IMG/VR virus record: IMGVR_UViG_3300007512_000009
Coordinates: 62,001 to 126,000 of that record
Source: a virus
DNA: 64,000 nucleotides
Direction: 5' to 3' (one strand)
Within the stretch, counting starts at the first letter, position 1. Every line of letters begins with the position of its first letter. The position numbers were made by a program, and so were the translations under genes. Shown here piece after piece: positions 26,404-63,202 of this stretch. The notes under the pieces are model-generated. The model ran no database searches and was not told the origin of the DNA. It was given only the letters and a program-made list of their open reading frames with translations.

Positions 26404-26428
26404 CCAGTATCCGCCATCATGGTATAAT
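26400..26428 (+). promoter_or_regulatory. Early promoter for gene 45
   Basis: TTGACC, 17-base spacer and TATAAT with extended TGG. CGCC lies 7 bases before the -10, one base from AGCC. The stop codon of the 57-residue gene is within the -35. A GGAG site and the gene 45 ATG follow 24 bases later. Confidence 0.85.
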
Positions 26429-26451
26429 ATATTCAACATGGAGCAACAAAA

Positions 26452-28557: not shown

Positions 28558-28817
28558 TTAGACCAATTAATGACAATTTAACAATTATAAGTGAAACAGA
28601 AAAAGAAAAAACCACTGAATCTGGTATTATTGTAACAGGCAGTGCTGTGGACGATAAGTCTAAACCCAAAGTAGTTATTGTAGCAGGAGTTGGTCCTGAT
28701 GTAAAGTCTGAAATTAAAATCGGTGATACGGTTTTATGGGGTAGACAAGGACTCGGTTCTTATGGTAACGTAGTTATTATACCTGAATCCTCTGTGCTGG
28801 CAATCATAACTACATGA
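28554..28817 (+). CDS. GroES-like co-chaperonin (gp31 role)
   Basis: An 87-residue GroES-type protein: MIRPINDNLTIISETEKEKT is the first strand and start of the mobile loop, ESGIIVTG follows, then VVIVAGVGPDV and IGDTVLWGRQG. T4 uses gp31 instead of host GroES to fold its capsid protein, and this protein probably does the same. It is closer to cellular GroES in length and motifs than T4 gp31 (111 residues). It lies between the two clamp loader genes with four-base overlaps on both sides. Confidence 0.9.
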   Translation: MIRPINDNLTIISETEKEKTTESGIIVTGSAVDDKSKPKVVIVAGVGPDVKSEIKIGDTVLWGRQGLGSYGNVVIIPESSVLAIITT

Positions 28818-33272: not shown

Positions 33273-33276
33273 AATA

Positions 33277-34134
33277 ATGATTGATAAAAATAAGAGATAC
33301 TTAATTACTGGTGCAGCCGGATTTCTGGGTGTAGCATTGTTAGATAGACTGGAAAGTATGGGTGTTACAAATGTGGTCACTGTATCTAGAAATGAAGGTA
33401 AACTAGTTGAGATTGCTCAAAAATATCCATGGTTAGAAATAATTCCAGGCGACATCTCTAACATTCATTGCTTACATAAAGGGTTAAAGGATGTTGATGG
33501 TGTGTTCCACCTTGCGGCATTCAAACACGTTGGTTTAGCAGAAACTCACTGTAGGGAATGTATTGCAAGCAACACCATCGGTTCAATGAACCTGTTAGAC
33601 CTTACAAGGGGCATGGATTTAGATTTTATTATTGGTATTAGCACCGATAAGGCAGCCCAAGTTGTGGGTGTTTATGGTGCATCAAAACTCTTAATGGAGA
33701 GTTTATTCGGTGAATATGAACGAATCAATCCTAACACCAAGTACAGAATCGTACGGTATGGGAATGTGTTGTATTCAACAGGTTCTGTGTTATGCAAATG
33801 GAAAGACCTGCTATCAAATAATGAAGAGGTTATCGTGACAGATGCAGAAGCAACACGTTTCTTTTGGACTAGAGAACAAGCAATCGATTTGATTTTTTCC
33901 TGCTTAGAAAATGCGACTGATACAACACCATATTGTCCAGACATGAAATCAATGAAAATTAGTGATATGCTTAAAGCGATGGCTAACAACTATCTACCTG
34001 AGGGTGGGAAGTTGAAAATTAAAACCATCGGTATACAAAAAGGTGAAAATCTTCATGAAAAGATTTTAGAAGAAGGGCCATATTCAAACGAAGTGGAATT
34101 ATATACGGTATCTGAGATTGAGGATATGGTTTGA
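33277..34134 (+). CDS. Nucleotide-sugar 4,6-dehydratase (CapD/PseB-like)
   Basis: A 285-residue short-chain dehydrogenase-type enzyme. The NAD-binding motif GAAGFLG is near residue 12, and GISTDKAAQVVGVYGASKLL is the CapD/PseB-type active site with the YxxxK pair. Such enzymes make 4-keto-6-deoxy sugars, commonly from UDP-GlcNAc. An aminotransferase (36859) and a cupin epimerase (37991) in the cassette could use the product. I prefer the ATG at 33277 because the family starts near it; one at 33262 is also possible. Confidence 0.82.
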   Translation: MIDKNKRYLITGAAGFLGVALLDRLESMGVTNVVTVSRNEGKLVEIAQKYPWLEIIPGDISNIHCLHKGLKDVDGVFHLAAFKHVGLAETHCRECIASNTIGSMNLLDLTRGMDLDFIIGISTDKAAQVVGVYGASKLLMESLFGEYERINPNTKYRIVRYGNVLYSTGSVLCKWKDLLSNNEEVIVTDAEATRFFWTREQAIDLIFSCLENATDTTPYCPDMKSMKISDMLKAMANNYLPEGGKLKIKTIGIQKGENLHEKILEEGPYSNEVELYTVSEIEDMV

Positions 34135-36899: not shown

Positions 36900-37998
36900 T
36901 TACGACGCATTAAAAGAATCTTTTGAAATCAACTGGATTACAGAGGGTCCAAAATCTCATAAATTCAATGAAGAAATTCGTGCGAAGGTAAACACCTATC
37001 ATGGTTCGTTCGCTCCTAACGGAACTCTAGCACTATATCTTGCTCTCAAAGCGTGTGGTATTGGTGAAGGTGATGAGGTTATTGTACCAAATTTCACATT
37101 TATTGCGACAGCAAATGCTGTGGAAATGGTAGGTGCTACTCCAGTGTTTGCTGATATTAACACTTATGATTTTCAGTTAGATGTTGGTGCCTGTGAAGGT
37201 TTGGTTACTGAGAAAACCAAAGCAATTATGCCTGCACATCTATATGGTTTTGCATGCGATATGGATGCAGTTATGGAATTCTCTGAAAGACACGGCATCT
37301 TGGTTATTGAAGACGCAGCCCAGGCACTAGGTGTGGAATGGAAAGGTAAAAGATGTGGTGGTATAGGTGATGTTGGATGTTTCTCGTTCTTCGCTGACAA
37401 AACAATAACAACTGGTGAGGGTGGATTCGTTGCTACCAACAATCCAGTTATACATGAGAAGGTTAAATACCTTAGAAATCAAGGTAGACAAGACAGAGGT
37501 ACGTTCATCCATCCAAAAATTGGTTATAACTTTAGGATGACAGATATCCAAGCATCCCTCGGACTGTCACAACTAAAGAAATTTAACACCATTGTGGAGA
37601 ACAAAACACGAATCCATAAGTTGTATACCGAGTTGCTGAAAGATGTGACTGAGGTAACAGTGGTACAGCCGACAGATGAAATTACTTCATTCATTCCTTT
37701 TAGGGTCGTGTTGACAGTAGACAATGAAAATACCTCAGAAGGGGTTATGAACTATATGAAAGAACATGAAATAGAACCCAGAACATTTTTCTACCCTTTA
37801 CATAAACAACCTTGTTTTAAAAAATATGTAGAAAATGATAAACGATATGAAGGTGATGTTTTCAGAAATTCAAATTATGCTTACGATAGAGGGGTTTGTT
37901 TGCCATCGTTTGCATCAATGACTGAAGACCAAGTGGAGTTTGTTTGTGACACCATTAAATCTTATTATGCTAATAAAAAGGTAACTGTTGATGTATAA
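36859..37998 (+). CDS. DegT/DnrJ/EryC1-type sugar aminotransferase
   Basis: A 379-residue PLP enzyme that puts an amino group on a keto sugar, usually from glutamate. VPNFTFIATANAVEMVGATP, HLYGFACDMDAV, VIEDAAQALGVEW and CFSFFADKTITTGEGG are the family motifs; Lys181 is the likely PLP-binding residue. ATG 36859 has GAGGAAG before it and is chosen over a GTG 12 bases upstream. It overlaps the GT10 gene by 41 bases. Confidence 0.9.
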   Translation: MKVPQFMPFVDLTDYDALKESFEINWITEGPKSHKFNEEIRAKVNTYHGSFAPNGTLALYLALKACGIGEGDEVIVPNFTFIATANAVEMVGATPVFADINTYDFQLDVGACEGLVTEKTKAIMPAHLYGFACDMDAVMEFSERHGILVIEDAAQALGVEWKGKRCGGIGDVGCFSFFADKTITTGEGGFVATNNPVIHEKVKYLRNQGRQDRGTFIHPKIGYNFRMTDIQASLGLSQLKKFNTIVENKTRIHKLYTELLKDVTEVTVVQPTDEITSFIPFRVVLTVDNENTSEGVMNYMKEHEIEPRTFFYPLHKQPCFKKYVENDKRYEGDVFRNSNYAYDRGVCLPSFASMTEDQVEFVCDTIKSYYANKKVTVDV

Positions 37999-38494
37999 AA
38001 TAGATGCTAGTATTACTGAACCAACTTTATTAAAAATCCAGTCGATTTCAGACGATAGGGGTTATTTAATACCAATAACAGATGATATCGACCATGATTT
38101 GTTCCATAGGTGCTATATTGTAAGCGATTATGGTAAAGGAGTCATAAGAGGTCTTCACTATCATAAACTGGAAACGAAAGTGTTTACAATAGTCAATGGG
38201 GCTGCTAAATTTATAACCCTTAAAATTTCGGAAGACATGGCAGACAGAAATGACCCATGTGAAATTTCTGATTTTATAGATGATAACCCAGATAGCGTAC
38301 AAACTTTTGTTTTAAGTAGCAGACATCACGGAGTTTTGGTGATTCCACCTTATTATGCTAATGGTTGGGTAAGTCTAGAAGATAATACCACATTAACTTC
38401 TCTCAGCAATCTTCGTTATGAAGAAGCAATGGATGATGACATTAGAATAGACCCTTATATTGTGTGCGAAGCGTGGGAAACAATAGGTAGATAA
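37991..38494 (+). CDS. RmlC-like cupin, sugar 3,5-epimerase type
   Basis: A 167-residue cupin of the dTDP-4-dehydrorhamnose epimerase type. DDRGYLIPITDD, GVIRGLHYHKLETKVFTIVN and GVLVIPPYYANGWVSLEDNT fit the RmlC fold, with the His of RGLHYH as the likely active base. It would epimerise or isomerise the 4-keto sugar. The stop overlaps the next start by one base. Confidence 0.78.
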   Translation: MYKIDASITEPTLLKIQSISDDRGYLIPITDDIDHDLFHRCYIVSDYGKGVIRGLHYHKLETKVFTIVNGAAKFITLKISEDMADRNDPCEISDFIDDNPDSVQTFVLSSRHHGVLVIPPYYANGWVSLEDNTTLTSLSNLRYEEAMDDDIRIDPYIVCEAWETIGR

Positions 38495-38703
38495 TGTCTT
38501 TTAAAGAAACAAAGACCAGAAGTGTTACTAAAACCATAGTTTGGAGATTAATTGCAATCCTGAACAGTTATTTAATTTTGATTTTAATGATATCGGATAA
38601 ACCAATGCATAATGCTTTATTAATGAATTTAACTGGATTTATTGTTTATTATTTTTACGAAAGAACTTGGGATAAAATTAAAAAAGGAAGGTACGAAGAA
38701 TGA
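38494..38703 (+). CDS. DUF2061-type small membrane protein
   Basis: A 69-residue protein. It shows ETKTRSVTKTIVWRLIAILN followed by a hydrophobic stretch with a second one ending in YERTWDKIKKG. This is the DUF2061 pattern: two membrane helices, with an Arg/Ser-rich N-terminal motif. In bacteria, small proteins of this kind sit in surface-sugar clusters. Overlaps both neighbours. Confidence 0.75.
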   Translation: MSFKETKTRSVTKTIVWRLIAILNSYLILILMISDKPMHNALLMNLTGFIVYYFYERTWDKIKKGRYEE

Positions 38704-39626
38704 AAATACTAGTGACAGGTGGTGCAGGTTACATTGGCAGTATGTTAGTACCAGAACTTTTGAAAGCGGGACATGAAGTGTGCGTTTACGATTCATTGTT
38801 GTTTGGTGGAAATAGCATGCTTCCACATTTTAGAAATTCCAATTTTACTTTTATAAAAGGTGACATTAGGGATACTGGTAAGTTGAAACAATCTGTTAAG
38901 GGTAAGGATGTTATTATTCACTTAGCCGCAATAGTTGGATATCCTGCCTGTGAGCAAGACCACAAAATCACGACAGAAGTAAACTTGGAAGCGACCAAGA
39001 AGTTAGTAGATATGCTTGATAGCAATCAAATAATTTTGTTTGGTTCTACTGGTAGCAACTACGGAAGGGTAGAAGGAGTTTGTACAGAAGAAACACCTTT
39101 AAATCCTCTAAGTCTATATGGCACAACAAAAACTGAAGCAGAGCAGTATATTATGAAAAATTGTAAAGCGGTTGCTTACAGATTTGCTACTGCATTTGGT
39201 CTTTCTCCAAGGTTAAGACTCGACCTTTTAGTTAACGATTTTACTAATAAAGCAATAAATGACAAGTATATTGTTGTTTATGAATCTCATTTTATGAGGA
39301 CTTTTATTCATGTACACGATATAGCAAGGTCTTTTTTATTTGCTTTAAATAATTTAGATAAAATGGTTGGAAACGTGTATAATGTGGGATGCGATACTAT
39401 GAATTTCAGCAAAAGAGAAGTGTGCGAAAAAATTCAAGCAGTTACCCCTTACTTTTTACATTTAGCGGATATCGGTAGTGATGCAGACCAAAGAGATTAT
39501 GTGGTGTCTTACGACAAGATTTCATCTCTTGGATTTGAAGTACATGTTGGGTTAGATGAAGGAATTCAAGAGTTGTCGGATGGAATTAAAGTTATTAAAA
39601 TACAAAACCCCTACGCAAATGTTTGA
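38700..39626 (+). CDS. NAD-dependent sugar epimerase/dehydratase
   Basis: A 308-residue extended short-chain dehydrogenase. GGAGYIGSMLVPELL is the NAD-binding motif, IIHLAAIVGYPACEQ follows, then GSTGSNYGRVEG and SLYGTTKTEAEQYI with the YxxxK pair. RTFIHVHDIARSFLFAL and GNVYNVGCDTMNFSK are typical C-terminal sugar-binding segments. The exact sugar is not decided by sequence. Confidence 0.85.
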   Translation: MKILVTGGAGYIGSMLVPELLKAGHEVCVYDSLLFGGNSMLPHFRNSNFTFIKGDIRDTGKLKQSVKGKDVIIHLAAIVGYPACEQDHKITTEVNLEATKKLVDMLDSNQIILFGSTGSNYGRVEGVCTEETPLNPLSLYGTTKTEAEQYIMKNCKAVAYRFATAFGLSPRLRLDLLVNDFTNKAINDKYIVVYESHFMRTFIHVHDIARSFLFALNNLDKMVGNVYNVGCDTMNFSKREVCEKIQAVTPYFLHLADIGSDADQRDYVVSYDKISSLGFEVHVGLDEGIQELSDGIKVIKIQNPYANV

Positions 39627-43188: not shown

Positions 43189-43220
43189 ACTTTATACAAA
43201 CACAATTGGAGATTTATATT

Positions 43221-43817
43221 ATGAGTAAACCTACACTTAGGTACTATAGAACACACGACAACGTAATACCACCAGAAGCAGGAACTGATGAAGCGGCTTG
43301 TTATGATTTGCACTCCCATTTATTTTACACAGAGAAATTTGACGACACTTCACCCAAAAGTTATTCAGATACACCACGTAAAGTAACAATAATTACACCA
43401 GATAATGTTGCATCAACTGTTCTTCCAGTAAAACAACATAGCGGATATCATGGGTCAGAGTCCACTCATACAGTTACAATTCCTGCTCATCATAGAGCAA
43501 TTGTACCAACAGGGATTGTATTTGACATTCCAAAGGGTTATTCTGTCAGACTGCATCCACGTTCAGGGTTATCAATCAACAAAGCATTCATCGTTGCAAA
43601 CTGTGAAGGTATAATTGATTCCGATTATTTTCATGAAATCAAAGCACTCATGGTCAATAATAGCAATAAAGACATTGTTGTCGAACACGGTGATAGGATT
43701 TGCCAAGCAGAAATCGTAAAGTGCATTGAACACACAATTGAAGAAACCTTTGACGAACCGCAACAACGAACAGACAGAGTTGGTGGTCTTGGTAGCACTG
43801 GGGTTAAAACATTATGA
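43221..43817 (+). CDS. dut: dUTPase
   Basis: A 198-residue trimeric-type dUTPase that turns dUTP into dUMP. Motifs in order: AGTDEAACYDL, LHPRSGLSI, NCEGIIDSDY, GDRICQAEI and RVGGLGSTG, the phosphate loop. It is about 50 residues longer than the usual enzyme because of a Ser/Thr/Asp-rich insertion (about residues 35-80). ATG 43221 has a GGAG site; the TTG further up is not used. It overlaps the next gene by four bases. Confidence 0.94.
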   Translation: MSKPTLRYYRTHDNVIPPEAGTDEAACYDLHSHLFYTEKFDDTSPKSYSDTPRKVTIITPDNVASTVLPVKQHSGYHGSESTHTVTIPAHHRAIVPTGIVFDIPKGYSVRLHPRSGLSINKAFIVANCEGIIDSDYFHEIKALMVNNSNKDIVVEHGDRICQAEIVKCIEHTIEETFDEPQQRTDRVGGLGSTGVKTL

Positions 43818-44161
43818 ATCAAGAAAAATTGTTAGAACATCATAAAGAACTTTGTAGTACTGCTTATGAATTGATGAAAAAGAAAAACCACGACTATGCA
43901 GGTAAAGACGGAACTACACCATTTGCAAATTTTGAAAAAGCAGAAATGATGGGTCTTTGTAGTACAGAATCAGGAATGATGGTTAGAATTTTAGACAAAA
44001 TTTCTAGAATTACAACTTATATTGATTCAGGTGAACTAAAGGTAGAAAACGAAGGCTACAATGATGCTGTTATTGACCTAATTAATTACCTTGTTCTGTT
44101 TAGTGGGTATATTAAATCAAAAGAAAAGAAATTGGCTAAATTCCCACTGAGGAATGGTTGA
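43814..44161 (+). CDS. DUF1599 protein (nucleotide modification-associated domain 1)
   Basis: A 115-residue helical protein with KKKNHDYAGKDGTTPFANFE, then GMMVRILDKISRITTYIDSG and NDAVIDLINYLVLFSGYI. This is the DUF1599 family, known from phages that modify or control their nucleotides; its fold is related to MazG-like nucleotide hydrolases. Co-transcribed with dut, which suggests pyrimidine nucleotide work. The stop TGA is part of the -35 of the gene 43 promoter. Confidence 0.82.
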   Translation: MNQEKLLEHHKELCSTAYELMKKKNHDYAGKDGTTPFANFEKAEMMGLCSTESGMMVRILDKISRITTYIDSGELKVENEGYNDAVIDLINYLVLFSGYIKSKEKKLAKFPLRNG

Positions 44162-44192: not shown

Positions 44193-46745
44193 ATGAGTAA
44201 GCGATTCTATACCGATGTATTGACCAGAGGGAATAACATACTGTATAGAGGTTACGATGAAAATGGTGACCAAGTAAAAGAAAAAATTGCATATAATCCC
44301 GCTTACTTTGTACCCACACACAAAGATACAAAATATAAAACATTGGATGGTGTTTATGTAGAAAAGATTCGTACAGGCTCTGTTAAAGAGTCGATGGATT
44401 TCTTTAAACAATATAAAGGTGTTGGTGGTATAGAAATTTACGGTGATATTAATTATCAATATCAATTTATAGGTGAAGAATTTAACGGTGATATAGAATA
44501 TGATATTAACAAAATTAAAATTACTACAATCGATATCGAAACCACATCAGAACACGGATTCCCAGATATGGAGAACCCAATTGAAAAAATTAATGCGATT
44601 ACTATTAAGATGGACGGTAAGACTTATAGTCTTGGTTTGGGTGATTTTGATGTTGTGGGTGTTCGCTGTTATCCTTGTTCTACCGAGATAGAATTAATTG
44701 AGAAATTCCTAGATTTATGGGAACAACTCAAACCAGACATTGTTACTGGTTGGCACGTCAGGTTTTTTGATATACCGTATCTTCACAATAGAATCAAACA
44801 CGTCATGAATAAAAAGACCGCAGAACGTCTTAGTCCATGGGGTGTAATAAAAGAAGTACAAATTCATAGACAAAACAGAATACAAAAAGTGTTCAACATT
44901 TATGGTGTTGCTGTTATGGACTACCTTGATTTATACTCAATGTTTACCTATGTGAATCAGGAATCTTACAGTCTAAATCATATATCATATGTTGAACTTG
45001 GTGAAGAAAAACTGTCCTATGATGAGTATGACTCTATTACCGAATTCTATAAGAACGATTTCCAGAAATTTATGGAATATAACATTAAAGATGTGGAACT
45101 CGTTTATAAACTTGAAGAAAAGTTAAAATTAATGGAGTTAGCGATTGCTCTCGCTTACTCCGCAAAAGTGAACTTTGAAGATGTATTCAGTCAGGTAAGG
45201 ATGTGGGATTGTATCATCTACCACTATTTGTTAGAGCATAACATTGTTATCCCACCCAGAAAGGTGGAACACAAATCTACCAAATATGAAGGTGCTTATG
45301 TTATGGAGCCGATAACAGGGATGCATGATTGGGTGATGTCGTTCGACTTGAACTCACTTTATCCTCACCTTATAATGCAGTATAACATTAGCACGGAAAC
45401 AAAACTCACTAATTTTAATAATGCACCTACTAGGGGTACTATTTCACCAAACGGTATTTTGGATGAAAACGAATTCACGTTGAAAAGAATGAAACCTTGG
45501 AAGGAAGCAAACCTTTCCATTGCCGCTAACGGTGTTCTTTTCGACAACTCACGAAGAGGGTTCTTACCTTCTCTAATGGAGAGGTTGTATGAAGAGAGAA
45601 AAGTAAGCAAATCGAAAATGATTGAAGCACAAAAAAGAATGGAAGAAATTCCGAAAATGAATATGCCTACAGTCGCAAGAGGTGCTTTACACAATAAATT
45701 AAAAAACGAAATTTCTAAATATAAAAACCAACAATTAGTTAGAAAAGTGCAATTGAACTCCGCATATGGTGCTATTGGAAACCAATATTGTCGATATTAT
45801 GATGTAGAGATTGCTGAAGCGGTAACAATATCTGGACAACTTAGCATCCGATGGATTGAGAGTAAACTAAATGACTTTTTAAATAAAACATTCAAGACAG
45901 AGGATTTCATCTATGTTATTGCTTCTGATACAGATTCTGTTTATATTCGGTTTGGGGATATTGTGGACAAATTTTGTCCCAACAAGGAGAAGCAGGAGGT
46001 GGTGGACTTCCTCGACAAATGTGCGGGAGAAATCATCGAACCGTTCATCAACAAAAAATACGATGAATTAGCAGAAAAAATGAACGCTTTTGATAACAAG
46101 ATGTTCATGAAAAGAGAGGTTATCGCAGACAAAGGGATATGGACTGCTAAAAAGAGATATATTTTAAATGTTCTTGATAACGAAGGTGTTAGATATGACG
46201 AACCGAAAATTAAGGTTACGGGCATTGAAACAACAAGAGCATCAACACCCGAAGTGGTAAGAAAAGAACTCAAGAAGGCAATTAATCTAATATTAACCAC
46301 CGATGAAGACACGGTGATTGATTTTATTGATGGATTCAAGACCAAGTTTTTCTCTCTACCACCAGAAGACATAGCATTTCCTAGAGGAATACGAGGTCTT
46401 ACTAAATATGAAGACGGAACTAGAATTTATGCAAGCGGTACACCGATTGCAACGAAGGGCGCATTAATTTATAACCATATTATTAAGAAAGAAAAACTAG
46501 ATAGGAAACATCAATTAATTAGAGAGAATGATAAAGCAAAATTTGTGTATTTAAAAACACCAAATACTATTAGAGAAAGAGTGATAACCTTCCCTAACGG
46601 ATTACCTAAAGAATTAGGATTATCAGAATACGTGGATTATGAGATGCAGTTTGAAAGAGGCTTTTTAAGACCTTTAGAGATGATACTCAAGACCATAGGA
46701 TGGCAAAATGAAAGAAAATCCAATCTTGAGGACTTGTTTTGTTGA
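44193..46745 (+). CDS. 43: DNA polymerase gp43 (family B)
   Basis: An 850-residue replicative polymerase with proofreading. Exonuclease motif I TIDIETTSEHG (Asp114, Glu116), exonuclease motif WHVRFFDIPYL, polymerase motif A SFDLNSLYPHL (Asp385), motif B KVQLNSAYGAIGNQYCRYYD and motif C IASDTDSVYIRF (Asp579). The C-terminal end, with a Leu-Glu-Asp-Leu-Phe motif, fits a clamp-binding tail. T4 gp43 is 898 residues. No ribosome site lies before the ATG and its promoter predicts a leaderless mRNA. Confidence 0.98.
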   Translation: MSKRFYTDVLTRGNNILYRGYDENGDQVKEKIAYNPAYFVPTHKDTKYKTLDGVYVEKIRTGSVKESMDFFKQYKGVGGIEIYGDINYQYQFIGEEFNGDIEYDINKIKITTIDIETTSEHGFPDMENPIEKINAITIKMDGKTYSLGLGDFDVVGVRCYPCSTEIELIEKFLDLWEQLKPDIVTGWHVRFFDIPYLHNRIKHVMNKKTAERLSPWGVIKEVQIHRQNRIQKVFNIYGVAVMDYLDLYSMFTYVNQESYSLNHISYVELGEEKLSYDEYDSITEFYKNDFQKFMEYNIKDVELVYKLEEKLKLMELAIALAYSAKVNFEDVFSQVRMWDCIIYHYLLEHNIVIPPRKVEHKSTKYEGAYVMEPITGMHDWVMSFDLNSLYPHLIMQYNISTETKLTNFNNAPTRGTISPNGILDENEFTLKRMKPWKEANLSIAANGVLFDNSRRGFLPSLMERLYEERKVSKSKMIEAQKRMEEIPKMNMPTVARGALHNKLKNEISKYKNQQLVRKVQLNSAYGAIGNQYCRYYDVEIAEAVTISGQLSIRWIESKLNDFLNKTFKTEDFIYVIASDTDSVYIRFGDIVDKFCPNKEKQEVVDFLDKCAGEIIEPFINKKYDELAEKMNAFDNKMFMKREVIADKGIWTAKKRYILNVLDNEGVRYDEPKIKVTGIETTRASTPEVVRKELKKAINLILTTDEDTVIDFIDGFKTKFFSLPPEDIAFPRGIRGLTKYEDGTRIYASGTPIATKGALIYNHIIKKEKLDRKHQLIRENDKAKFVYLKTPNTIRERVITFPNGLPKELGLSEYVDYEMQFERGFLRPLEMILKTIGWQNERKSNLEDLFC

Positions 46746-46787: not shown

Positions 46788-47852
46788 ATGTCAAGTAATA
46801 GTTTTTTGGATTCAATTATTAAAGATTCTGGTAATGAATACGCAGGTATTGTGTCTGACGGAGTAGAAGGTAGTGATGTAACAGGATTCGTGGACACTGG
46901 CAGCCTTGCATTAAACGCACTTTTATCTGGTAGCATTTATAACGGTATGCCAGATAATAAAATCATTGCACTTGCAGGTGAGTCAGCAACAGGTAAAACT
47001 TATTTTGCTATCGATATATGTAAAACATTTTTGAAAGATAGCCCCGATGGGATTGTTTTATATTTTGACTCTGAACAAGCAATCACCTCTCAAATGATAA
47101 ATGAAAGAGGGATGGACCCAAATAGGGTTGCTATTTTCCCAGTTGCCACTGTTGAAGATTTCAGATTCCAATGTATAAAAATAGTAGACAAAGTTTTAGA
47201 ACAAAATAAAAAAGATAGAAAACCAATGATTATTGTATTGGATTCACTTGGTATGTTGTCTACTAACAAAGAAATGACAGACACCGCAGAGGGCAAAGAC
47301 ACAAGAGATATGACTAGGGCACAAATGGTAAAATCGACATTCCGTGTTCTTACTCTAAAACTCGGTAAAGCACACATACCTCTTATTATGACTAACCACA
47401 CATATGATGCAGTTGGTTCGTATGTTCCAATGAAGGTTATGGGTGGGGGTTCTGGTTTAAAATATGCTGCCTCAACAATTTTATATCTTTCAAAGAAGAA
47501 AATCAAAGATGGTACTGAAATTGTAGGTAACATTATCAAGTGCAAACTTTTCAAAAGCAGACTCACAAAAGAAAACAAACAAGTTGAAGTTGAACTAAAT
47601 TATGAAACAGGTCTGAATAAGTATTTTGGTTTAGTAGACCTAGCAACCAAATATAATATTTTTAAAAAGGTGTCCACAAGGATAGAGTTACCAGACGGTC
47701 GGAAAGTTTACGAAAAGAACATTAATACCGAACCTGAAAAATACTACACAAAAGAAATATTAAGTCAAATAGACAAGGCTGCAGCCGAAGAGTTTAAATA
47801 TGGAAGTAGCACAAATATTAACCAAGAAACTGAATTAGAAGAAAATGGGTAA
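46788..47852 (+). CDS. uvsX: Recombinase UvsX (RecA-like)
   Basis: A 354-residue strand-exchange protein. Walker A GESATGKT is at 64-71; [16 protein letters not shown] is the Walker B region; [16 protein letters not shown] and [12 protein letters not shown] follow, as in T4 UvsX (391). It works with UvsY, UvsW and gp46/47 in recombination-dependent replication. Its stop overlaps the next start by eight bases. Confidence 0.97.
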
Positions 47853-48156
47853 AATCGAATTACCAGAATACAGATTTGCTGAAAACCCAAGTGATGACAA
47901 AACTGGTGCAATTCGCATATCTAATGGTAAATTTAAAGGTTTTACCTATCAATATGGTGTTGTCAGTCTTGATGAAGTGGACGGTTCACTTAAAGTTAAC
48001 TTTACATATGATATAGTTGACAACGAAAAATGTTACCCAATAAATCAAGAGTTGACTAATATAATGGGTGGCATTTTAACAGAACTCATTAACGAAAGAT
48101 ATGATGATGGAAGCGACTACAGAGATAATTATCCTGACGAATCTGATTCAGAGTGA
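47845..48156 (+). CDS. Unknown small protein between uvsX and gene 41
   Basis: A 103-residue acidic protein. The segment [20 protein letters not shown] and then [20 protein letters not shown] suggest a beta-rich domain; the end is Asp/Ser-rich. A protein of this type sits between uvsX and 41 in T4-like cyanophage genomes as I recall. It overlaps gene 41 by 56 bases in another frame. Function unknown. Confidence 0.75.
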
Positions 48157-49519
48157 TGTCTACATGAGAAAGGTTATTCCTTTCTTAAAAGAAGACTACT
48201 TTTCTGACAGGATTGAACGCAAGATTTTTGAAGTTGTAAAAGACTTCATTGACAAATATAATAAAGCACCAAACAAGGATGCCTTGTCTGTCTGTTTATC
48301 TAACTTAACCAATGTTTCGGAGTCTGAATATAAAGAGGCAAAAGAAATAATAGAGGAGATTACAGTTAAGAGTGAATCTTCCCCAGACGATAAATGGTTA
48401 TTAGATACCACTGAGTCTTTTTGCAAAGATAAATCGATTTATAATGCAATATTGGAATCTATACAAATTATTGATGGTAAATCTGAGCAGAGTAAAAACC
48501 ACCTACCTACACTTCTGCAAGAAGCACTTTCAGTTTCATTTGATGTATCTGTGGGTCATGACTATATAGAAGATTCTGATGAACGATATGATTTTTACCA
48601 CAAGAAAGAAGATAAAATCCCATTTGATTTAGATTTTTTCAATAAAATCACAAATAATGGTACTCCACAAAAAACACTAAATGTTATACTTGCAGGAACA
48701 GGCGTTGGTAAATCACTATTCATGTGTCATCATGCGGCCAACTGTTTAACCCAAAATAAGAATGTATTGTATATTACCTGTGAAATGGCGGAAGAGAGAA
48801 TTGCAGAACGAATTGATGCTAATTTAATGGATATCACTATGGATGAACTACGAGAACTTCCAAAAGAAATATATTCAAAGAAGGTATCAACAGCAACAAA
48901 AAAGATTGATGGTAAACTAATTATCAAAGAATATCCAACTGCAACAGCAAATGTGAACCACTTTAGAGCATTATTAGAAGAACTTAGTTTAAAAAAGAGG
49001 TTTGTACCAGACATAATATTTGTTGATTACTTAAATATTTGTGCGGCAGCAAGATTTAAAAATGGTGCAAATGTAAATTCTTATATGTATATAAAAGCAA
49101 TAGCAGAAGAACTTAGAGGTTTTGCAGTAGAAAACGATGTACCCATATTTACGGCAACCCAAACAAACAGAGGTGGTTTTGCAAATACGGATGTTGGACT
49201 TGAAGATACCTCTGAATCATTTGGTTTACCTGCAACTGCCGATTTTATGTTTGCGGTCATCTCTACTGAAGAACTGGATGAGGTGAATCAAGTTTTAATA
49301 AAACAACTGAAAAATAGGTATAATGATACTGCTATTAATAGAAAATTTGTAGTGGGGATAAACAGGTCTAAAATGAAACTATATGATGTATCTAAAGGTG
49401 AACAAACAGATTTAATATGTTCTGGACAATCTACATATAGTAGAGATGACTTGGATGAAAAATTCAGTAAACAAACCGCCACTAAAGTTGGCGAACCATT
49501 TTCCGATTGGAATATTTAA
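48101..49519 (+). CDS. 41: Replicative helicase gp41 (DnaB-like)
   Basis: A 472-residue hexameric helicase that works with primase gp61. Walker A AGTGVGKS is at 198-205, then NVLYITCEMAEERIAERIDA, PDIIFVDYLNIC (Walker B) and PIFTATQTNRGGF (motif H3). T4 gp41 is 475 residues. The start lies inside the preceding gene; three ATGs in a row (48101, 48104, 48107) are all possible, and [19 protein letters not shown] shortly after them matches the family N-terminus. Confidence 0.95.
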   Translation: MMMEATTEIIILTNLIQSDVYMRKVIPFLKEDYFSDRIERKIFEVVKDFIDKYNKAPNKDALSVCLSNLTNVSESEYKEAKEIIEEITVKSESSPDDKWLLDTTESFCKDKSIYNAILESIQIIDGKSEQSKNHLPTLLQEALSVSFDVSVGHDYIEDSDERYDFYHKKEDKIPFDLDFFNKITNNGTPQKTLNVILAGTGVGKSLFMCHHAANCLTQNKNVLYITCEMAEERIAERIDANLMDITMDELRELPKEIYSKKVSTATKKIDGKLIIKEYPTATANVNHFRALLEELSLKKRFVPDIIFVDYLNICAAARFKNGANVNSYMYIKAIAEELRGFAVENDVPIFTATQTNRGGFANTDVGLEDTSESFGLPATADFMFAVISTEELDEVNQVLIKQLKNRYNDTAINRKFVVGINRSKMKLYDVSKGEQTDLICSGQSTYSRDDLDEKFSKQTATKVGEPFSDWNI

Positions 49520-49530
49520 AGGAGATAAGC

Positions 49531-49701
49531 ATGGACGAAAAAGAACTTAAAGACTGGTCAGACTGGGCAAAAGCGTATGAAATAAGTATCGATGAAGAAC
49601 ATGGTGCAGGCGAAAAAGGTACTGATGAATTAAAAGGTAAGTACGCCAAAGAAACACCAGGCCAAACATCAGATACAGATGAGGAATCCTTACAAAAATG
49701 A
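49531..49701 (+). CDS. Small acidic protein between genes 41 and 61
   Basis: A 56-residue acidic protein with a very good ribosome site (AAAGGAGATAAGC) before the ATG. MDEKELKDWSDWAKAYEISI is the only structured-looking part; the rest is rich in Glu, Asp, Gly and Lys. It overlaps gene 61 by four bases. Unknown function; a link to the helicase-primase pair is only suggested by position. Confidence 0.7.
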   Translation: MDEKELKDWSDWAKAYEISIDEEHGAGEKGTDELKGKYAKETPGQTSDTDEESLQK

Positions 49702-50786
49702 GCATGATTGTTGATAAAAAATTTATCAACTTAATTTCTATTGAACTTAGAAACTTCAAATGGAAAAAAGAATCTCAGGCACAGTGTTCATGTCCAATCT
49801 GTGGTGATAGTAAAAAAGATGCAAAAAAAGCGAGAGGTTATTTTTATCAGAAACATGGACGTTTTTTCTATAAGTGTTTTAACTGTGGATACTGGTCTAA
49901 CATATATAAATTTTTATCTCAAGTTTCCCCAGATTTATGTAAAGAGTATGGACTTGAATCTTTTAAGGGAAACATCAATAACAACCGATTGGTAAAAAAG
50001 AATAAAATTAATAGAAGAAATGATGGAGAAGAAATTGTGAAAGGACTGTTTGGTAAAAATCCCTCTAGTATTAAAAAGATAAGGGACGGATATAAAATTC
50101 TTGGTGATTTGGTAAAATTAAAAGACTTACCAAGCGACCATAATGCTGTAAAATTTGCTAATATGAGGTTAATCCCCAAAGAATATTGGGATTTGCTTTA
50201 CTATACTGAAGATTTTGGTAAATTTTCTAAGGGTCTAGACCCAGAAACTAATTACAGAGAATCAGAAGAAAGATTAGTTATTCCATTCTTTAATAGTAAA
50301 GGTGACGTAGTGGCAGCACAAGGTAGAGCATTGAGTATGTCTAGTGAGGTGAATGCTAGGAACACTCTTAAATATCTTACTGTAAAAGCGGATAAGAGTA
50401 TAGACAGGCTGTTTTATGGTCTTTGGAGATGCAATCCTGAAAAGAGAGTTTATGTAGTAGAGGGGCCGATTGATAGTTTATTCATCAAGAATGCAATTGC
50501 AATGGTTGGTGCCAGTTCTATAAATAAACTTCCTGAAAGATTGCGTGATAAAGATGTAGTATTTGTGCTTGATAATGAACCAAGAAATGAACAGATTGTC
50601 AAATTCAATGAAGAACTCATTAAGCAAGGAAGACAAGTTTGCATCTGGCCTGAATCTTTAAAAGAAAAAGATATTAATGACATGTCGTACAGGATTTCGA
50701 CTCGTAAAATCCAAAAAATGATTGATGAGAACACATTTCGTGGTCTTGAAGCAACAATAAAACTTAATAAATGGAAGAGAATATGA
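49698..50786 (+). CDS. 61: DNA primase gp61
   Basis: A 362-residue primase. A zinc ribbon is at residues 30-63 (Cys30/32/35 and Cys60/63, in CPICGDSKKD and YKCFNCGYW). The catalytic Toprim part has RLVIPFFNSKGDVVAAQGRA, VYVVEGPIDSLFIKN and VVFVLDNEPRN. T4 gp61 is 342 residues. It makes primers together with gp41. Its stop overlaps the glutamine synthetase ATG (ATGA). Confidence 0.95.
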   Translation: MSMIVDKKFINLISIELRNFKWKKESQAQCSCPICGDSKKDAKKARGYFYQKHGRFFYKCFNCGYWSNIYKFLSQVSPDLCKEYGLESFKGNINNNRLVKKNKINRRNDGEEIVKGLFGKNPSSIKKIRDGYKILGDLVKLKDLPSDHNAVKFANMRLIPKEYWDLLYYTEDFGKFSKGLDPETNYRESEERLVIPFFNSKGDVVAAQGRALSMSSEVNARNTLKYLTVKADKSIDRLFYGLWRCNPEKRVYVVEGPIDSLFIKNAIAMVGASSINKLPERLRDKDVVFVLDNEPRNEQIVKFNEELIKQGRQVCIWPESLKEKDINDMSYRISTRKIQKMIDENTFRGLEATIKLNKWKRI

Positions 50787-51844
50787 ACAACTGTAAACTT
50801 GAATATTTGTGGTTAGACGGTTACAAAACACCCAACGTTAGAAGTAAAACTAAGTATTGTAATATAAACCCCTCTGCTGATGGTAGACTAACCTTAAACG
50901 ATGTTCCTGAATGGGGATTTGATGGGTCTAGTACGGAACAAGCAGTGGATAGTGATAGTGACTGTGTTTTAAAACCAGTATCAATCTATAATAACACCGT
51001 TGATAGTATAATAGGTAATAATTCATACATTATATTATGTGAAGTAATGAATTCTGATGGTACACCACACAAATCCAATACACGTGCTAAACTCCGAAAA
51101 CTAGAAAAGAAGTTTGACAACCAAAACTTTTGGTTCGGTATTGAACAAGAATACACTATAATAAACAACGCCAATAATAAACCCTACGGATGGCCCGAAA
51201 ATGGGTATCCACCACCACAAGGTAGATACTACTGTGGTGTAGGTGGTGATGTAGTCACAATGAGGGAGTTAGCACACGAACATGCGATGGCCTGTAATAC
51301 AGCAGGTATTCCTCTGTGTGGTACAAACGCTGAAGTAATGTTAGGTCAATGGGAGTACCAAATTGGTACTGCAGGAATCCTAGAAATATGCGACTATCTA
51401 TGGGTTGCTCGTTATATGTTGGAAGTTTTAGCAGAAACAAAAGATGTAAGTATTAGTTTAGACCCCAAACCTATTATGGGCGACTGGAATGGTTCAGGTG
51501 CACACATCAATTTCTCAACAGAAAGACTTCGTGAAGAAGGTGGAAAAAGATACATCACTGGTATTATAAAAAATTTGATGGACAAACATGAAGAACATAT
51601 TGAAGAATATGGTATTGGAAATGAAGATAGATTAACAGGAGAACATGAAACTCAACATATTGATGTTTTTTCTTCTGGTGATTCAGACAGAGGTGCATCT
51701 ATTCGTATCCCCCCAATTACTTCTAAAACATTGAAGGGATATCTTGAAGATAGAAGACCATCCGCAAATATGGACCCCTATCGTGCAGTAGCAAAATTGG
51801 TTGAAACAGTTGGTAATGTTAGTATGGTTGTTAATGCGTTATGA
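50783..51844 (+). CDS. Glutamine synthetase, type II-like
   Basis: A 353-residue glutamine synthetase: glutamate plus ammonia plus ATP gives glutamine. LEYLWLDGYKTPNVRSKTK at the N-terminus, VPEWGFDGSSTEQA, FWFGIEQEYTII, GIPLCGTNAEVMLGQWEYQI, GDWNGSGAHINFS and RGASIRIPP match the eukaryote-type GSII form, both in motif and in length (about 350 instead of about 470 for GSI). The Tyr adenylylation segment of bacterial GSI is absent, as expected for GSII, so host GlnE would not switch it off. ATG 50783 overlaps the primase stop and has GGAAGAG upstream. Confidence 0.95.
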   Translation: MNNCKLEYLWLDGYKTPNVRSKTKYCNINPSADGRLTLNDVPEWGFDGSSTEQAVDSDSDCVLKPVSIYNNTVDSIIGNNSYIILCEVMNSDGTPHKSNTRAKLRKLEKKFDNQNFWFGIEQEYTIINNANNKPYGWPENGYPPPQGRYYCGVGGDVVTMRELAHEHAMACNTAGIPLCGTNAEVMLGQWEYQIGTAGILEICDYLWVARYMLEVLAETKDVSISLDPKPIMGDWNGSGAHINFSTERLREEGGKRYITGIIKNLMDKHEEHIEEYGIGNEDRLTGEHETQHIDVFSSGDSDRGASIRIPPITSKTLKGYLEDRRPSANMDPYRAVAKLVETVGNVSMVVNAL

Positions 51845-52215: not shown

Positions 52216-54156
52216 ATGTGTGAATATTTACCAACCGATTACCAGTCATTTATCCATAGAAGTAGATATGCTAGATGGATAGAAGACTTAGACAGAAGAG
52301 AAACTTGGGAAGAAACAGTTGATAGATATATAAATTTCTTTAAGGAACATCTTGGAAAAACCTTGGGTTATAAGATGAGTCCAAACGTGAAGAACGAAAT
52401 TAAAAACTCAATATTGAATCTAGAAATCATGCCTTCTATGCGTTCACTAATGACAGCAGGAGAGGCACTAAAGACGGATGCAGTATCAGGCTATAACTGT
52501 GCATACCTTGCTATTAATAGAGTACGAGCATTTGACGAAGTTCTTTATACTTTAATGTGCGGAACAGGCGTTGGTTTTAGTGTTGAACGTAACTATGTTA
52601 ACAAATTACCTACTATTGCTGAAGAGTTTGAGGATTCTGACACTACTATTGTTGTTAAAGATAGCAGAATAGGTTGGTGCAAAGCATACAAAGAACTTAT
52701 ATCATTGCTTATAACAGGTCAAATTCCAAAATGGGATATGACTAAAATAAGACCTTCTGGTTCTAGACTTAAGACATTCGGTGGTAGGTCTTCTGGACCA
52801 GAGAGTTTAGAAGAATTATTCAATTTTACAATTGCAACATTTAGAAAAGCAAATGGACGAAAATTAACTACAATTGAATGTCATGACTTAGTATGTAAAA
52901 TTGCAGAGATTGTAGTTGTTGGTGGTGTTCGTCGTAGTGCATTGTTATCTTTATCTTCATTAACTGATGAAAGAATGAGAGTAGCAAAAACTGGACAATG
53001 GTGGGCTATTGAACCACAACGTGCCTTATCAAACAATTCTGTTTGTTATAAAGAAAAACCAGAAATTGGTACGTTCATGGACGAATGGATTTCCCTTTAT
53101 AAGTCAAAATCTGGAGAGCGTGGTATCTTTAATAGAGAATCAGCAGAAAGAACAATTGAAAATATTGAAGGACAACGACGAGAACTAGGACATGATTGGG
53201 GATGTAATCCTTGTTCCGAAATCATACTTAGAGATAGAGAGTTCTGTAATCTTTCTGAGGTTGTGGTTAGAGAAGATGATACTGAAGAAACACTAATTAG
53301 GAAAGTTCAACTTGCTACAATTTTAGGAACATGGCAAGCAACACTAACAGACTTCCGCTATTTATCTAAAGAGTGGAAAAACAACTGTGAAGAAGAGAGA
53401 TTGCTTGGTGTATCAATGACTGGTATTATGGATTGTAAACTTACTAATGGTGATAAGAAAACAGTTGGTAAACTACCAGAGTTATTAGCAAATCTAAGAA
53501 AGACAGCAATCAAGACAAATAAAGAATGGTCTGACAGGTTGGGTGTTAACCAGTCTGTTGCAATTACTTGTGTTAAACCTAGTGGTACAGTGTCACAGTT
53601 AGTGGATTCTGCATCAGGAATTCATGCTCGTCATTCTGAGCATTACATTAGAACAGTACGTGCAAACACAAAAGACCCGCTATGTCAGTTTATGATAGAT
53701 GAAGGTTTTCCCCATGAACCTTGCCACATGAAACCAGACTCCACCATTGTTTTTTCATTCCCGATTAAATCTCCCAAAAACGCAATATTTAGAAAAGACA
53801 AAGATGCATTAGAGCAACTTGAATTATGGTTATTATATCAAAAGTATTGGTGCGAACACAAACCCAGTGTTACAATCACTGTTAAAGAACATGAATGGCT
53901 AAAAGTTGGTGCTTGGGTTTATAGTAATTTCAATAATATTTGTGGTATTTCATTTCTTCCTTATTCTGACCACAGTTACAAGCAAGCACCCTATCAAGAA
54001 TGTAATAAAAAAGAATTCAACAAACTTTGCAAACAAATGCCAAAGGATGTTAACTGGACAAAACTTAGTCATTATGAGCAGGAAGATAACACGGCAGGGT
54101 CACAAACGATGGCCTGCAGTGGTGGCTCTTGTGAGGTAGTTGATTTAACAAATTAA
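52216..54156 (+). CDS. nrdJ: B12-dependent class II ribonucleotide reductase, monomeric type
   Basis: A 646-residue enzyme converting ribonucleotides to deoxyribonucleotides with adenosylcobalamin. SGYNCAYLAINRVRAFDEVL, MCGTGVGFSVE, VVGGVRRSALLSLSSL and WGCNPCSEIIL (catalytic Cys region) fit the monomeric, Lactobacillus/cyanophage-type class II enzyme. The end MACSGGSCEVVDL holds the redox-active Cys pair. It needs no NrdB partner, and none is seen. The ribosome site is AAAAGGAA. The host must supply B12. Confidence 0.94.
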   Translation: MCEYLPTDYQSFIHRSRYARWIEDLDRRETWEETVDRYINFFKEHLGKTLGYKMSPNVKNEIKNSILNLEIMPSMRSLMTAGEALKTDAVSGYNCAYLAINRVRAFDEVLYTLMCGTGVGFSVERNYVNKLPTIAEEFEDSDTTIVVKDSRIGWCKAYKELISLLITGQIPKWDMTKIRPSGSRLKTFGGRSSGPESLEELFNFTIATFRKANGRKLTTIECHDLVCKIAEIVVVGGVRRSALLSLSSLTDERMRVAKTGQWWAIEPQRALSNNSVCYKEKPEIGTFMDEWISLYKSKSGERGIFNRESAERTIENIEGQRRELGHDWGCNPCSEIILRDREFCNLSEVVVREDDTEETLIRKVQLATILGTWQATLTDFRYLSKEWKNNCEEERLLGVSMTGIMDCKLTNGDKKTVGKLPELLANLRKTAIKTNKEWSDRLGVNQSVAITCVKPSGTVSQLVDSASGIHARHSEHYIRTVRANTKDPLCQFMIDEGFPHEPCHMKPDSTIVFSFPIKSPKNAIFRKDKDALEQLELWLLYQKYWCEHKPSVTITVKEHEWLKVGAWVYSNFNNICGISFLPYSDHSYKQAPYQECNKKEFNKLCKQMPKDVNWTKLSHYEQEDNTAGSQTMACSGGSCEVVDLTN

Positions 54157-54476: not shown

Positions 54477-55616
54477 ATGAATATCTCAAAAATTACAAAG
54501 TTCGGTATTGCTTCATTGCTTGCAGGGATTGCATGTGGTGCGGCAGGTGCTGACACAAACACAGAACTGCAAGAACGACTTGCACGTGCAGAAGCAAGGA
54601 TTGATGAACTCACTGCATCAAAAGATTCAAACTGGCTAAACGATACTCGTTCCGACGAAATTCGTTCATTAGTCCGTGATGTTCTTGCAGACGCAGACGC
54701 TCGCTCAAGCATGATTGGTAATGGTTCACCTGTTACCTTGAATGTTCATGGTTTTTTGCAAACTCGTTGGTCGTACAATGACATCAAAACAGATGGCGTT
54801 GATACTACTCACGGTTTCAATGTTCCACGAACACGACTTGAAGTTTCTGGTGACCTCTATGATTGGGGTTACATGGTAAGTGGTCAGTGGAATGATGGTG
54901 GAAACTTTACCCTAATGGATGCATATGCAGATTGGGGTAACTTCCGAGTTGGTCAATTCAAGAGTCCTTTTATGAAGGAAGTTTTGACCGCACAAACAGA
55001 TACACTCGCAACCGAGCGTTCTGTTATCTCAAATCAGTTCGGTCAAGGTCGTAGTCAAGGTATTCAATACGGATACGACACCTCATTCGGTGGCGTTAGT
55101 GTTGCATATACCGATGGATTTAATACTGCAAATGGTGCAGGAGTCCAAAATGGTTACGCACTTACTGGTCGTGTTGATTTCAGTCCTACTAATTGGTTGA
55201 GTGCTGGCGTTGCTGTTTCACACAACGACCTAGACACAACTGATTATAACACGTGGACTGCTGATGCAACATTTAGTGCAGGTGGATTTGATTTCACTGG
55301 TGCTTATGTAGCAACAATGGATGACACTAATGGCGATGATTGGGGTACAGTCTGGACAGCATCATATGATGTAACAGACAAAGCACAATTGTTCGGTCAA
55401 TATGAAGTTGGACACCTTGAAGGTGTTGCAACTGATTTGAAAATTGCCACATTTGGTGTTAATTATGCATTCAATAGCAATGTTAAATGGACAACCGACG
55501 TAGGTTATGCATTTGACAGCGTTGATGCAGGATGGAACTTGGGAACTAGTGGTTGGAATACAACCGCAAATGAAGGTGAAACCCTTATTCGCTCCCAACT
55601 CCAAGTTAAATTTTAA
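54477..55616 (+). CDS. Outer-membrane porin (phosphate-porin O/P-like)
   Basis: A 379-residue beta-barrel protein. Residues 1-25 are a signal peptide with cleavage after GAAGA; 28-44 form a short coiled coil (ELQERLARAEARIDELT); residues 53-80 (WLNDTRSDEIRSLVRDVL and following Ala/Asp) are a periplasmic helix that, from memory, resembles Planctomycetota porins. Then come alternating strands such as VNVHGFLQTR-type and RTRLEVSGDLYDWGYMVSG, with FRVGQFKSPFMKEVLT typical of OprO/OprP barrels. The end LQVKF has the terminal Phe needed for barrel assembly. GC content looks higher than in neighbouring genes. Ribosome site AAAGGAGAT and own terminator. Confidence 0.9.
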   Translation: MNISKITKFGIASLLAGIACGAAGADTNTELQERLARAEARIDELTASKDSNWLNDTRSDEIRSLVRDVLADADARSSMIGNGSPVTLNVHGFLQTRWSYNDIKTDGVDTTHGFNVPRTRLEVSGDLYDWGYMVSGQWNDGGNFTLMDAYADWGNFRVGQFKSPFMKEVLTAQTDTLATERSVISNQFGQGRSQGIQYGYDTSFGGVSVAYTDGFNTANGAGVQNGYALTGRVDFSPTNWLSAGVAVSHNDLDTTDYNTWTADATFSAGGFDFTGAYVATMDDTNGDDWGTVWTASYDVTDKAQLFGQYEVGHLEGVATDLKIATFGVNYAFNSNVKWTTDVGYAFDSVDAGWNLGTSGWNTTANEGETLIRSQLQVKF

Positions 55617-61938: not shown

Positions 61939-62144
61939 ATGAATCAAAACCAACAATATCACACGGAACATCACTACCTACACTACTCACAGTATTGTTT
62001 ATCGCACTGAAACTATGTGGGGTTATTGACTGGTCTTGGTGGTGGGTGTTATCACCAATTCCTATTACACTTGGTATAGCATTGGTGGTATTTGCAGTAG
62101 TCATTAGTGTTCTAATGTATAAAAATCGAAAGGATAAAACATGA
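61935..62144 (+). CDS. Small phage membrane protein with WSWWWVLSP motif
   Basis: A 69-residue protein with two membrane helices (about 14-32 and 44-62) joined by GVIDWSWWWVLSPIPI, a motif widespread in small phage membrane proteins. It ends in a basic tail (KNRKDKT). Overlaps both neighbours by four bases. Unknown role. Confidence 0.8.
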   Translation: MNESKPTISHGTSLPTLLTVLFIALKLCGVIDWSWWWVLSPIPITLGIALVVFAVVISVLMYKNRKDKT

Positions 62145-63202
62145 AAGAAGCGATTACCTACGATGATGTTTTATTGACACCCAGATATAGTGAATGCACA
62201 CCAGACATGGTAGATGTTTCTACAGTATTGGGTATTATGAAATTGGATATACCAATAATTTCAGCACCTATGGATACTGTTACAGAGAAATCTATGGCAG
62301 AAGGAATGTCTAAACTTGGTGGTCTTGGTATAATTCATAAAAATATGGATGAGGTGACTCAGTTATCACAGATTAAAGCAGTTATGGCTGGTTGTAACAA
62401 GGTCGGTGTTGCTGTCAGTCCTACTAAATTTAAAAAAGACCACATTAGAAAAATGGTTGATACTGGTGTTTCAACAATAGTTGTTGACTCTGCACATGGT
62501 GATTCTCTTAATGTCATTAAAGCAGTGGAAGAAATATCAATGATGGGTGATGATGTCATTATCATTGCGGGCAATGTTGCAACTGGACTTGGTGCAAAAA
62601 GACTGGTAAGTGCGGGTGCTGATGTAATAAAAGTGGGAATTGGGCCGGGCTCTATTTGCACAACCAGAATTGTTGCAGGTGTTGGTATACCACAGTTGAC
62701 TGCTATTATGGATGTGAGAGAGGAAATCAAAGGTTCAGCAGACATTATCGCAGATGGTGGAATTCGATGCAGTGGTGATATTGCAAAAGCACTAGCAGCC
62801 GGTGCATCTGCTGTGATGCTAGGTTCAATGCTTGCGGGTCACGACGAATCTCCCAACTTTAAGGAAGTTGTCTGGATAAACGACAAAAGATATGTATCTT
62901 ATCGTGGAATGGGAAGTGAAGGTGCAATGAACGAAGGTTCTGCCGACCGATACAACCAAGATGGTTCTAAAAAATTCGTACCAGAAGGTGTTGAAGGTTG
63001 TGTTCCTTATAGAGGTAAACTTGAAAATACTATATATCAACTAATAGGTGGTTTGAAATCGTCAATGGGATACCTTGGTGCAGGGAATCTGACAAGTTTC
63101 AGAAGGAATGCAGAATTTGTAAAAGTCAGTTCTGCTTCTCTTAGAGAAAATCATCCTCACAACATACATAATATGAAGGAATCAGCGAATTATGCAAACT
63201 AA
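62141..63202 (+). CDS. guaB: IMP dehydrogenase without CBS domains
   Basis: A 353-residue enzyme that oxidises IMP to XMP, the first step to GMP. TYDDVLLTPRYSE, ISAPMDTVTEKSMAEGMSKL, VVDSAHGDSLNV, GIGPGSICTTR (catalytic Cys173), IADGGIRCSGDIAKALAAGA and YRGMGSEGAM fit IMPDH. The RYNQ at 270-273 corresponds to the Arg-Tyr flap dyad; GMP reductase lacks this and has a different flap. HKNM is followed directly by the rest of the barrel, so the two CBS modules (about 120 residues) are missing, and with them the nucleotide control. Confidence 0.95.
   Translation: MKEAITYDDVLLTPRYSECTPDMVDVSTVLGIMKLDIPIISAPMDTVTEKSMAEGMSKLGGLGIIHKNMDEVTQLSQIKAVMAGCNKVGVAVSPTKFKKDHIRKMVDTGVSTIVVDSAHGDSLNVIKAVEEISMMGDDVIIIAGNVATGLGAKRLVSAGADVIKVGIGPGSICTTRIVAGVGIPQLTAIMDVREEIKGSADIIADGGIRCSGDIAKALAAGASAVMLGSMLAGHDESPNFKEVVWINDKRYVSYRGMGSEGAMNEGSADRYNQDGSKKFVPEGVEGCVPYRGKLENTIYQLIGGLKSSMGYLGAGNLTSFRRNAEFVKVSSASLRENHPHNIHNMKESANYAN

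Follow-up and report, generated by a model that had tools for sequence, protein, structure and literature searches.

The stretch of viral DNA analysed here (the window; 64,000 nucleotides, bases 62001–126000 of a 126,210-base IMG/VR record) encodes, on sequence grounds, an intact type II glutamine synthetase (GSII), the one copy in the record, among the replication genes of a T4-like phage. The enzyme as such is ordinary, its location is what makes it informative: it belongs to a conserved and probably functional lineage of GSII in marine T4-like phages. With some reserve, we favor the interpretation that a working GSII, translated with the replication genes, would boost glutamine for nucleotide synthesis, and that it represents an old T4-like lineage residing among replication and recombination genes.

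The enzyme and its gene neighborhood

The GSII reading frame contains no internal stop codons. An alternative in-frame ATG is found upstream, at 50771; the start at 50783 yields an ATGA overlap with the primase stop codon (50786), and the matches in two related IMG/VR loci (L010 and L047) begin there. The product scores above the cut-off for the Pfam domain Gln-synt_C (E value 8.7e-16; 58.3 bits, cut-off 24) and slightly under it for Gln-synt_N (27.7 bits, cut-off 33.4). With the NCBIfam family GlnII (NF041605) it reaches 402.3 bits, compared with 58 bits for GlnA (type I) and 47 bits for type III; the curated GlnII cut-off of 500 bits, which is not attained, is a naming threshold and no structural feature. 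The top PDB match is the Streptomyces GSII 4bax (E value 2.7e-99), and by both the NCBIfam scores and the PDB ranking the protein is nearer to type II than to types I and III. The catalytic and beta-grasp domains are both present, and the predicted model aligns to the solved GSII over 356 columns. The sequence-only reading had called the gene an intact type II GS, and the uninterrupted frame agrees with the family, domain and PDB matches on this point. Being of cellular type, metabolic, carried by a viral genome and under purifying selection, it has the attributes of an auxiliary metabolic gene.

The AlphaFold2 model, for which 33 aligned sequences served as input, has a mean pLDDT of 91.7 and a pTM of 0.92, and its best Foldseek match is 4bax (TM 0.94, rmsd 1.6). 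The protein includes the motifs FDGSS, EQEY, NAEVM, GQWEYQ, NGSGAH, HET, SDRGASIRIP and EDRRP. In an alignment of 33 sequences (24 viral and 9 cellular), the columns D47, E121, E123, E184, E191, H241, R283, E289, R303, R308, E322 and R324 are invariant; the roles of the single residues are presumably those assigned in plant and human GS. Loss of active-site residues had earlier been named as the outcome that would speak against the enzyme, and the motifs, the invariant columns and the fold match to 4bax indicate that they are kept. The GSII dN/dS is 0.077 against L002 (dS 0.42), the sole pair far from saturation; values of 0.092 (L003), 0.048 (L010) and 0.078 (L004) come from pairs near saturation (dS 2.3–2.8), and the other six pairs are saturated. 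The corresponding values for the primase are 0.059 (L002) and 0.064 (L010). In GC3, GSII (0.257) resembles its neighbors gp61 (0.262) and gp41 (0.247). A pseudogene is ruled out by the intact frame and the low dN/dS, and the predicted fold, the active-site motifs and the purifying selection indicate that the product would be a working enzyme.

The gene order is dUTPase, DUF1599 protein, gp43, UvsX, a small ORF, gp41, a small ORF, gp61, GSII, a small ORF and ribonucleotide reductase (RNR), and the polymerase identified in the record is of the gp43 type (Table 1). The four bases ATGA are common to the gp61 stop and the GSII start. It had been claimed from the letters alone that GSII is located inside the replication operon with a four-base primase overlap; this is borne out, the primase (phrog_47) following gp41 and UvsX, and a second ATGA overlap, with the small ORF at the 3’ end of GSII, had been overlooked. 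Because such overlaps flank GSII on both sides, co-translation with its neighbors appears likely. No Rfam match to a glutamine riboswitch was found at gathering scores in the 64-kb window.

Table 1. Replication and nucleotide-metabolism features of the window, in window positions
Feature	Position	Strand	Evidence
dUTPase	43212–43817	+	PF00692, E value 3.3e-20; TIGR00576 over cut-off
DUF1599 'nucleotide modification associated' protein, weak	43814–44161	+	PF07659, E value 8.4e-4, under cut-off
gp43-type DNA polymerase	44193–46745	+	phrog_262, 1037 bits
UvsX-like recombinase	46788–47852	+	phrog_97, E value 1.3e-84
gp41-type replicative helicase	48101–49519	+	phrog_19, E value 1.2e-122
gp61-type DNA primase	49698–50786	+	phrog_47, E value 1.8e-74
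GSII, 353 aa	50783–51844	+	domain, family, PDB and model matches
Small conserved ORF, 57 aa	51841–52014	+	ATGA overlap with GSII stop
RNR, closest to adenosylcobalamin-dependent triphosphate type	52216–54156	+	phrog_367, E value 1.1e-187; TIGR02505, 308.7 bits, cut-off 340
IMP dehydrogenase / GMP reductase family protein	62141–63202	+	PF00478, E value 2.9e-122; TIGR01302, 375.7 bits, cut-off 481.5

The RNR encoded 3’ of gp61/GSII in L005, L012, L097, L101, L104, L109, L130, L179 and L190 is only 28–30% identical to that of the window, which suggests that enzymes are also swapped at the RNR position. After the RNR gene, a porin-like outer-membrane protein is encoded (54477–55616; PF13609, E value 2.3e-9), which has no match in the phage collection and homologues in many IMG/VR relatives. 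A GroES-like co-chaperonin (28554–28817; phrog_3188, E value 4.9e-12) is located between the clamp-loader genes gp44 and gp62. Genes like those for PseB, RmlC and GalE of sugar-nucleotide metabolism (33262–34134, 37988–38494 and 38700–39626) all score under the NCBIfam cut-offs.

Placements and history of the phage GSII

GSII relatives are encoded in 247 IMG/VR stretches, the best 80 of which were kept for gene-order work; all records are possibly fragments. By gene order, 14 of these 80 are of the window type, with GSII in the gp61 slot (L001–L012, L042 and L047); the L012 match starts inside GSII, so that its upstream side is unseen. The gene stands directly 3’ of the primase (gap 0–30 bases) in L001, L002, L010 and L003, in which the GSII identity is 100, 93, 81 and 69%, respectively; L001 does not differ from the window and could stem from the same sample or a sister sample. 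As the same adjacency recurs in other metagenome records, misassembly is unlikely, and the earlier concern about an assembly break at the gene is eased.

At least 113 distinct gp61 loci were found: GSII is adjacent in 13, elsewhere in 3, absent from the available DNA in 79, and 18 are too short. Thus, among the matches listed, GSII occupies the gp61 slot in 13 of 95 scorable loci and 79 have no GSII match, which implies that most relatives do without GSII there. In L091 (and L092, which has the same gp61), primase and RNR are 75% and 86% identical to those of the window; no GSII is present, and the primase directly overlaps the homologue of the small ORF that follows GSII in the window. The window and L091 are therefore a clean with/without pair at the gp61 slot.

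Elsewhere in T4-like phages, GSII lies between gp43 and uvsX (L223 and L232/L233, from the primase and helicase scans, among the matches listed), between the gp46 block and RNaseH/gp45/gp44 (L016, L022, L062, L064, L066, L021 and L067) or after regA (L025); the gp46 and regA types together make up 8 of the best 80. In L016, L021, L022, L062 and L066, GSII comes after a homologue (68–81% identical) of a phrog_12517 protein of the window (22534–24168) with weak DNA-methyltransferase similarity. A distant T4-like group (16 of the 80) has RNR upstream of GSII, and in 14 of these 16 a gp43 or family-B polymerase is found downstream, up to 7.6 kb away. The remaining 42 loci belong to other viruses. 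For 41 of them the window replication genes are unmatched in the available DNA, the exception being L031 with weak gp43 and gp61 matches; 13 of the 42 match any window protein besides GSII, and one of these 13 loci matches a replication gene.

In a careful GSII tree of 61 rows, the gp61-slot enzymes form one group (support 100/98), the other marine T4-like types a second (99/93), and the 18 GSII of the gp61, gp43/uvsX, gp46 and regA placements lie on one side of a 100/97 branch. The distant group with RNR upstream is separate (100/97). No cellular row of this tree falls inside the T4-like group. The phylogeny that the sequence-only reading had called for accordingly sets the 18 T4-like enzymes apart, as one group, from the sampled cellular ones. 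Recent capture of GSII from a host is not supported by this arrangement, read with a one-sided cellular sample: the cellular set comprises the 80 nearest among the matches listed, distant proteobacterial, actinobacterial and eukaryotic GSII are left out, and the root is undefined.

Independent captures at each slot were also considered and set aside, since the 61-row tree unites the gp61-slot and gp43/uvsX types and their joint grouping is not rejected by the AU test (p-AU 0.625, with a higher likelihood under the constraint). Joining the gp61-slot type with the distant RNR group is likewise not rejected (p-AU 0.433), so that the AU tests decide nothing on GSII grouping. On a gp41 tree of 85 rows, the gp61-slot label requires 5 changes, at least 4 of which are forced by well-supported branches; if gp41 and gp61 have recombined, this count could be too high. 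The simplest reading of these sequences is that one old phage GSII lineage may have gone through repeated loss or exchange and changed its slot. We hold back from a firm claim of a single lineage because L223, the only gp43/uvsX row in the trees, sits on a long branch, because of the undecided AU tests and because of the one-sided cellular sample.

Proposed role of the enzyme in infection

GSII would convert glutamate, ammonia and ATP to glutamine. Expressed from the replication operon together with primase, helicase and recombinase, the enzyme may raise the level of glutamine, which donates nitrogen in the synthesis of purines, GMP and CTP, during genome replication; this supply would lie upstream of the IMP dehydrogenase family protein and the RNR that the phage itself encodes. 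Glutamine feeds PurF, PurL, GMP synthase, CTP synthase and carbamoyl phosphate synthase. Through losses, exchanges and changes of slot, the lineage would have stayed among replication and recombination genes, and the recurrence of the same enzyme at several spots among DNA-copying genes suggests that it probably helps to make DNA building blocks fast enough. A link to nucleotide synthesis, which had been proposed from the window alone, is a plausible one, for which the IMP dehydrogenase family, RNR and PurZ-like genes of the record speak indirectly; its purine part does not hold generally, as set out below.

Alternatively, GSII might serve general nitrogen assimilation, the glutamine going into amino acids and protein in nitrogen-poor water and the operon place reflecting early timing only. 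The passages of published accounts that deal with viral GS class it as a nitrogen-metabolism gene, and 41 of the 42 other viral loci lack a matched window replication gene nearby, which moves slight weight from the nucleotide to the nitrogen reading; against it, T4-like phages repeatedly place GSII in replication, recombination or RNR surroundings, and we consider it possible but doubtful. GSII is not known to be subject to adenylylation, and it had been suggested earlier that the phage enzyme stands in for the type I enzyme of the host once adenylylation would shut that down. The protein is a GSII by sequence and predicted fold, but the idea presupposes that the host has both type I GS and an adenylyltransferase, and the nearest cellular GSII among the matches listed are in Neomarinimicrobiota, where a host would itself use GSII; such a bypass is improbable. 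In several bacteria GS interacts with regulators, and the phage protein could by analogy be non-catalytic or moonlighting, e.g. a glutamine-sensing regulator or decoy, but invariant active-site motif columns and a low dN/dS make this very hard to credit.

A bolder version of the nucleotide role involves a PurZ-like gene at record bases 26406–27497 (L086:6406–7497), outside the window, in a phage with a gp43-type polymerase. Its product matches 6fko (E value 3.6e-52; deposited as adenylosuccinate synthetase), which we take to be the PurZ of phage VC8, and 7odx (PurZ; E value 6.9e-31). The best NCBIfam match is PurZ, at 208.9 bits and below the cut-off of 300. The catalytic Asp of PurA is replaced with Ser, within a GSTGKG motif that is identical in 6fko and 7odx. 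This replacement distinguishes PurZ according to passages of PMC12884076, and 6FM1, of the same structure set as 6fko, is named phage VC8 PurZ in those of PMC8342488; words beginning with 'myovir' are absent from the passages of both Z-DNA papers. Close relatives occur at 10 IMG/VR loci, and an adenylate-kinase-like P-loop gene homologue lies 3’ of the gene in all 8 loci with DNA beyond it. The PurZ-like protein matches 206 records of the named-phage collection, all with less than 60% identity; among the 40 of these listed, identity is at most 39% and no record exceeds 90 kb, so no T4-like phage is evident among them. As a partner, PurZ would call for an enzyme that removes dATP or dGTP (DatZ, MazZ, DutZ or DUF5664). 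No HD-domain match was found in the record, the controls being detected in 14 of 14 cases; PF04447 also has no match in the record, but is silent in 14 of 14 controls as well. The record also encodes the dUTPase and the DUF1599 protein, as possible enzymes of this kind. A DUF4406 / nucleoside deoxyribosyltransferase-like (NDT-like) gene (window 27137–27601) accompanies PurZ in all three long records but in none of seven fragments with PurZ, and two records have it without PurZ; in G112 and G115 its homologue is at most 300 bases from an IMP dehydrogenase-like gene.

Within 20 records, the PurZ-like gene is present in three of the six with GSII of the window type (those of at least 126 kb) and in none of the 14 without GSII. 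The same three have a close IMP dehydrogenase (60–61% identity), a 102-kb GSII record lacks both, and a distant IMP dehydrogenase (35–37%) is found in three GSII-less records. Among 14 further GSII records (6 T4-like with other placements, 8 other viruses), the only match is in a 270-kb other virus, at 30% identity, and could be an ordinary PurA. Eight other PurZ-bearing records have no GSII, being fragments of 5–48 kb and too short to settle the matter. With none of the six other T4-like placements carrying the PurZ-like gene, a general GSII–PurZ link is rejected, and the counts of 3/6 and 0/6 leave a 2-aminoadenine genome only a bold option. We give little credence to the proposal that GSII, the IMP dehydrogenase family protein, the PurZ-like protein and the adenylate-kinase-like protein constitute one purine line and that this T4-like phage has a 2-aminoadenine genome. 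The line would lead from IMP via XMP to GMP, using glutamine, and from dGMP to the 2-aminoadenine nucleotide; if true, each 2-aminoadenine base would cost one extra glutamine at the GMP step, which would explain GSII.

Comparison with known glutamine synthetases

Only 11 of 50,697 phage records match GSII: 4 are unannotated huge-phage records (46–50% identity) and 7 are from Listeria or Enterococcus phages (23–25%). The statement of the sequence-only reading that no established T4-like phage has this gene stands insofar as none was found in a named T4-like phage, and needs amending insofar as the gene is common in uncultured viruses (the 247 stretches) and phage GS is in print. The titles and abstract openings of the open-licence literature yielded no T4-like phage with GSII, and 'type II glutamine synthetase' was not found paired with phage in that literature. 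In the passages concerned, GS is reported from jumbo phages (PMC13037316), from viruses putatively infecting SAR86 (PMC10721903), from Microcystis viruses (PMC12542629) and, as cited by PMC9083009, from oxygen-minimum-zone viromes. It was called an auxiliary metabolic gene in nine moraphages of 25 new genomes (PMC12619734); these phages likewise carry a GS, but they are jumbo phages whose hosts are mostly predicted to be Bacteroidota, and the passages on them state no GS class and no location in a replication operon.

The huge uncultured phages LR756501, LR756503, LR745206 and LR756502 (records of 635–735 kb) encode the GSII homologues of 46–50% identity. Unlike the window, three huge-phage stretches (6 kb on each side of GSII) have no gp43, gp41 or gp61 match; two have a weak gp44 match (31–33%) 3–4 kb from GSII. 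By gp41, the nearest named phages are T4-like cyanophages and the methylophage Melnitz (55–60% identity), which are absent from the 11 GSII-matching records; the passages on Melnitz record it without glnA (PMC9004378).

As to the host, no tRNA genes were found that could serve as a clue, and the porin-like gene has weak matches in 2 of 100 genomes from the same phylum as G005, a Neomarinimicrobiota genome, and on two plasmids. The nearest cellular GSII among the matches listed, from Neomarinimicrobiota (SAR406) and Patescibacteria, share up to 55–57% identity and fall outside the T4-like group (100/97 branch).

In the published passages, viral GS appears as a nitrogen-metabolism gene without genomic context, whereas here one phage GSII lineage may be traced across related T4-like phages, where it occupies four or more positions amid replication and recombination genes. 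These traceable placements, together with the with/without pair, make the purpose of GSII testable. They raise the questions of whether nitrogen supply limits DNA synthesis in infected cells and whether it is nucleotides, and not protein, that the enzyme provides for. The record is also an indication that a T4-like phage can carry a PurZ-like cassette. The Streptomyces coelicolor GSII (4bax) has the same fold and motifs, at 47% identity in the structural alignment, but is the product of a cellular gene, while that of the window is viral and lies inside a replication operon; the finding is new in context, not in kind.
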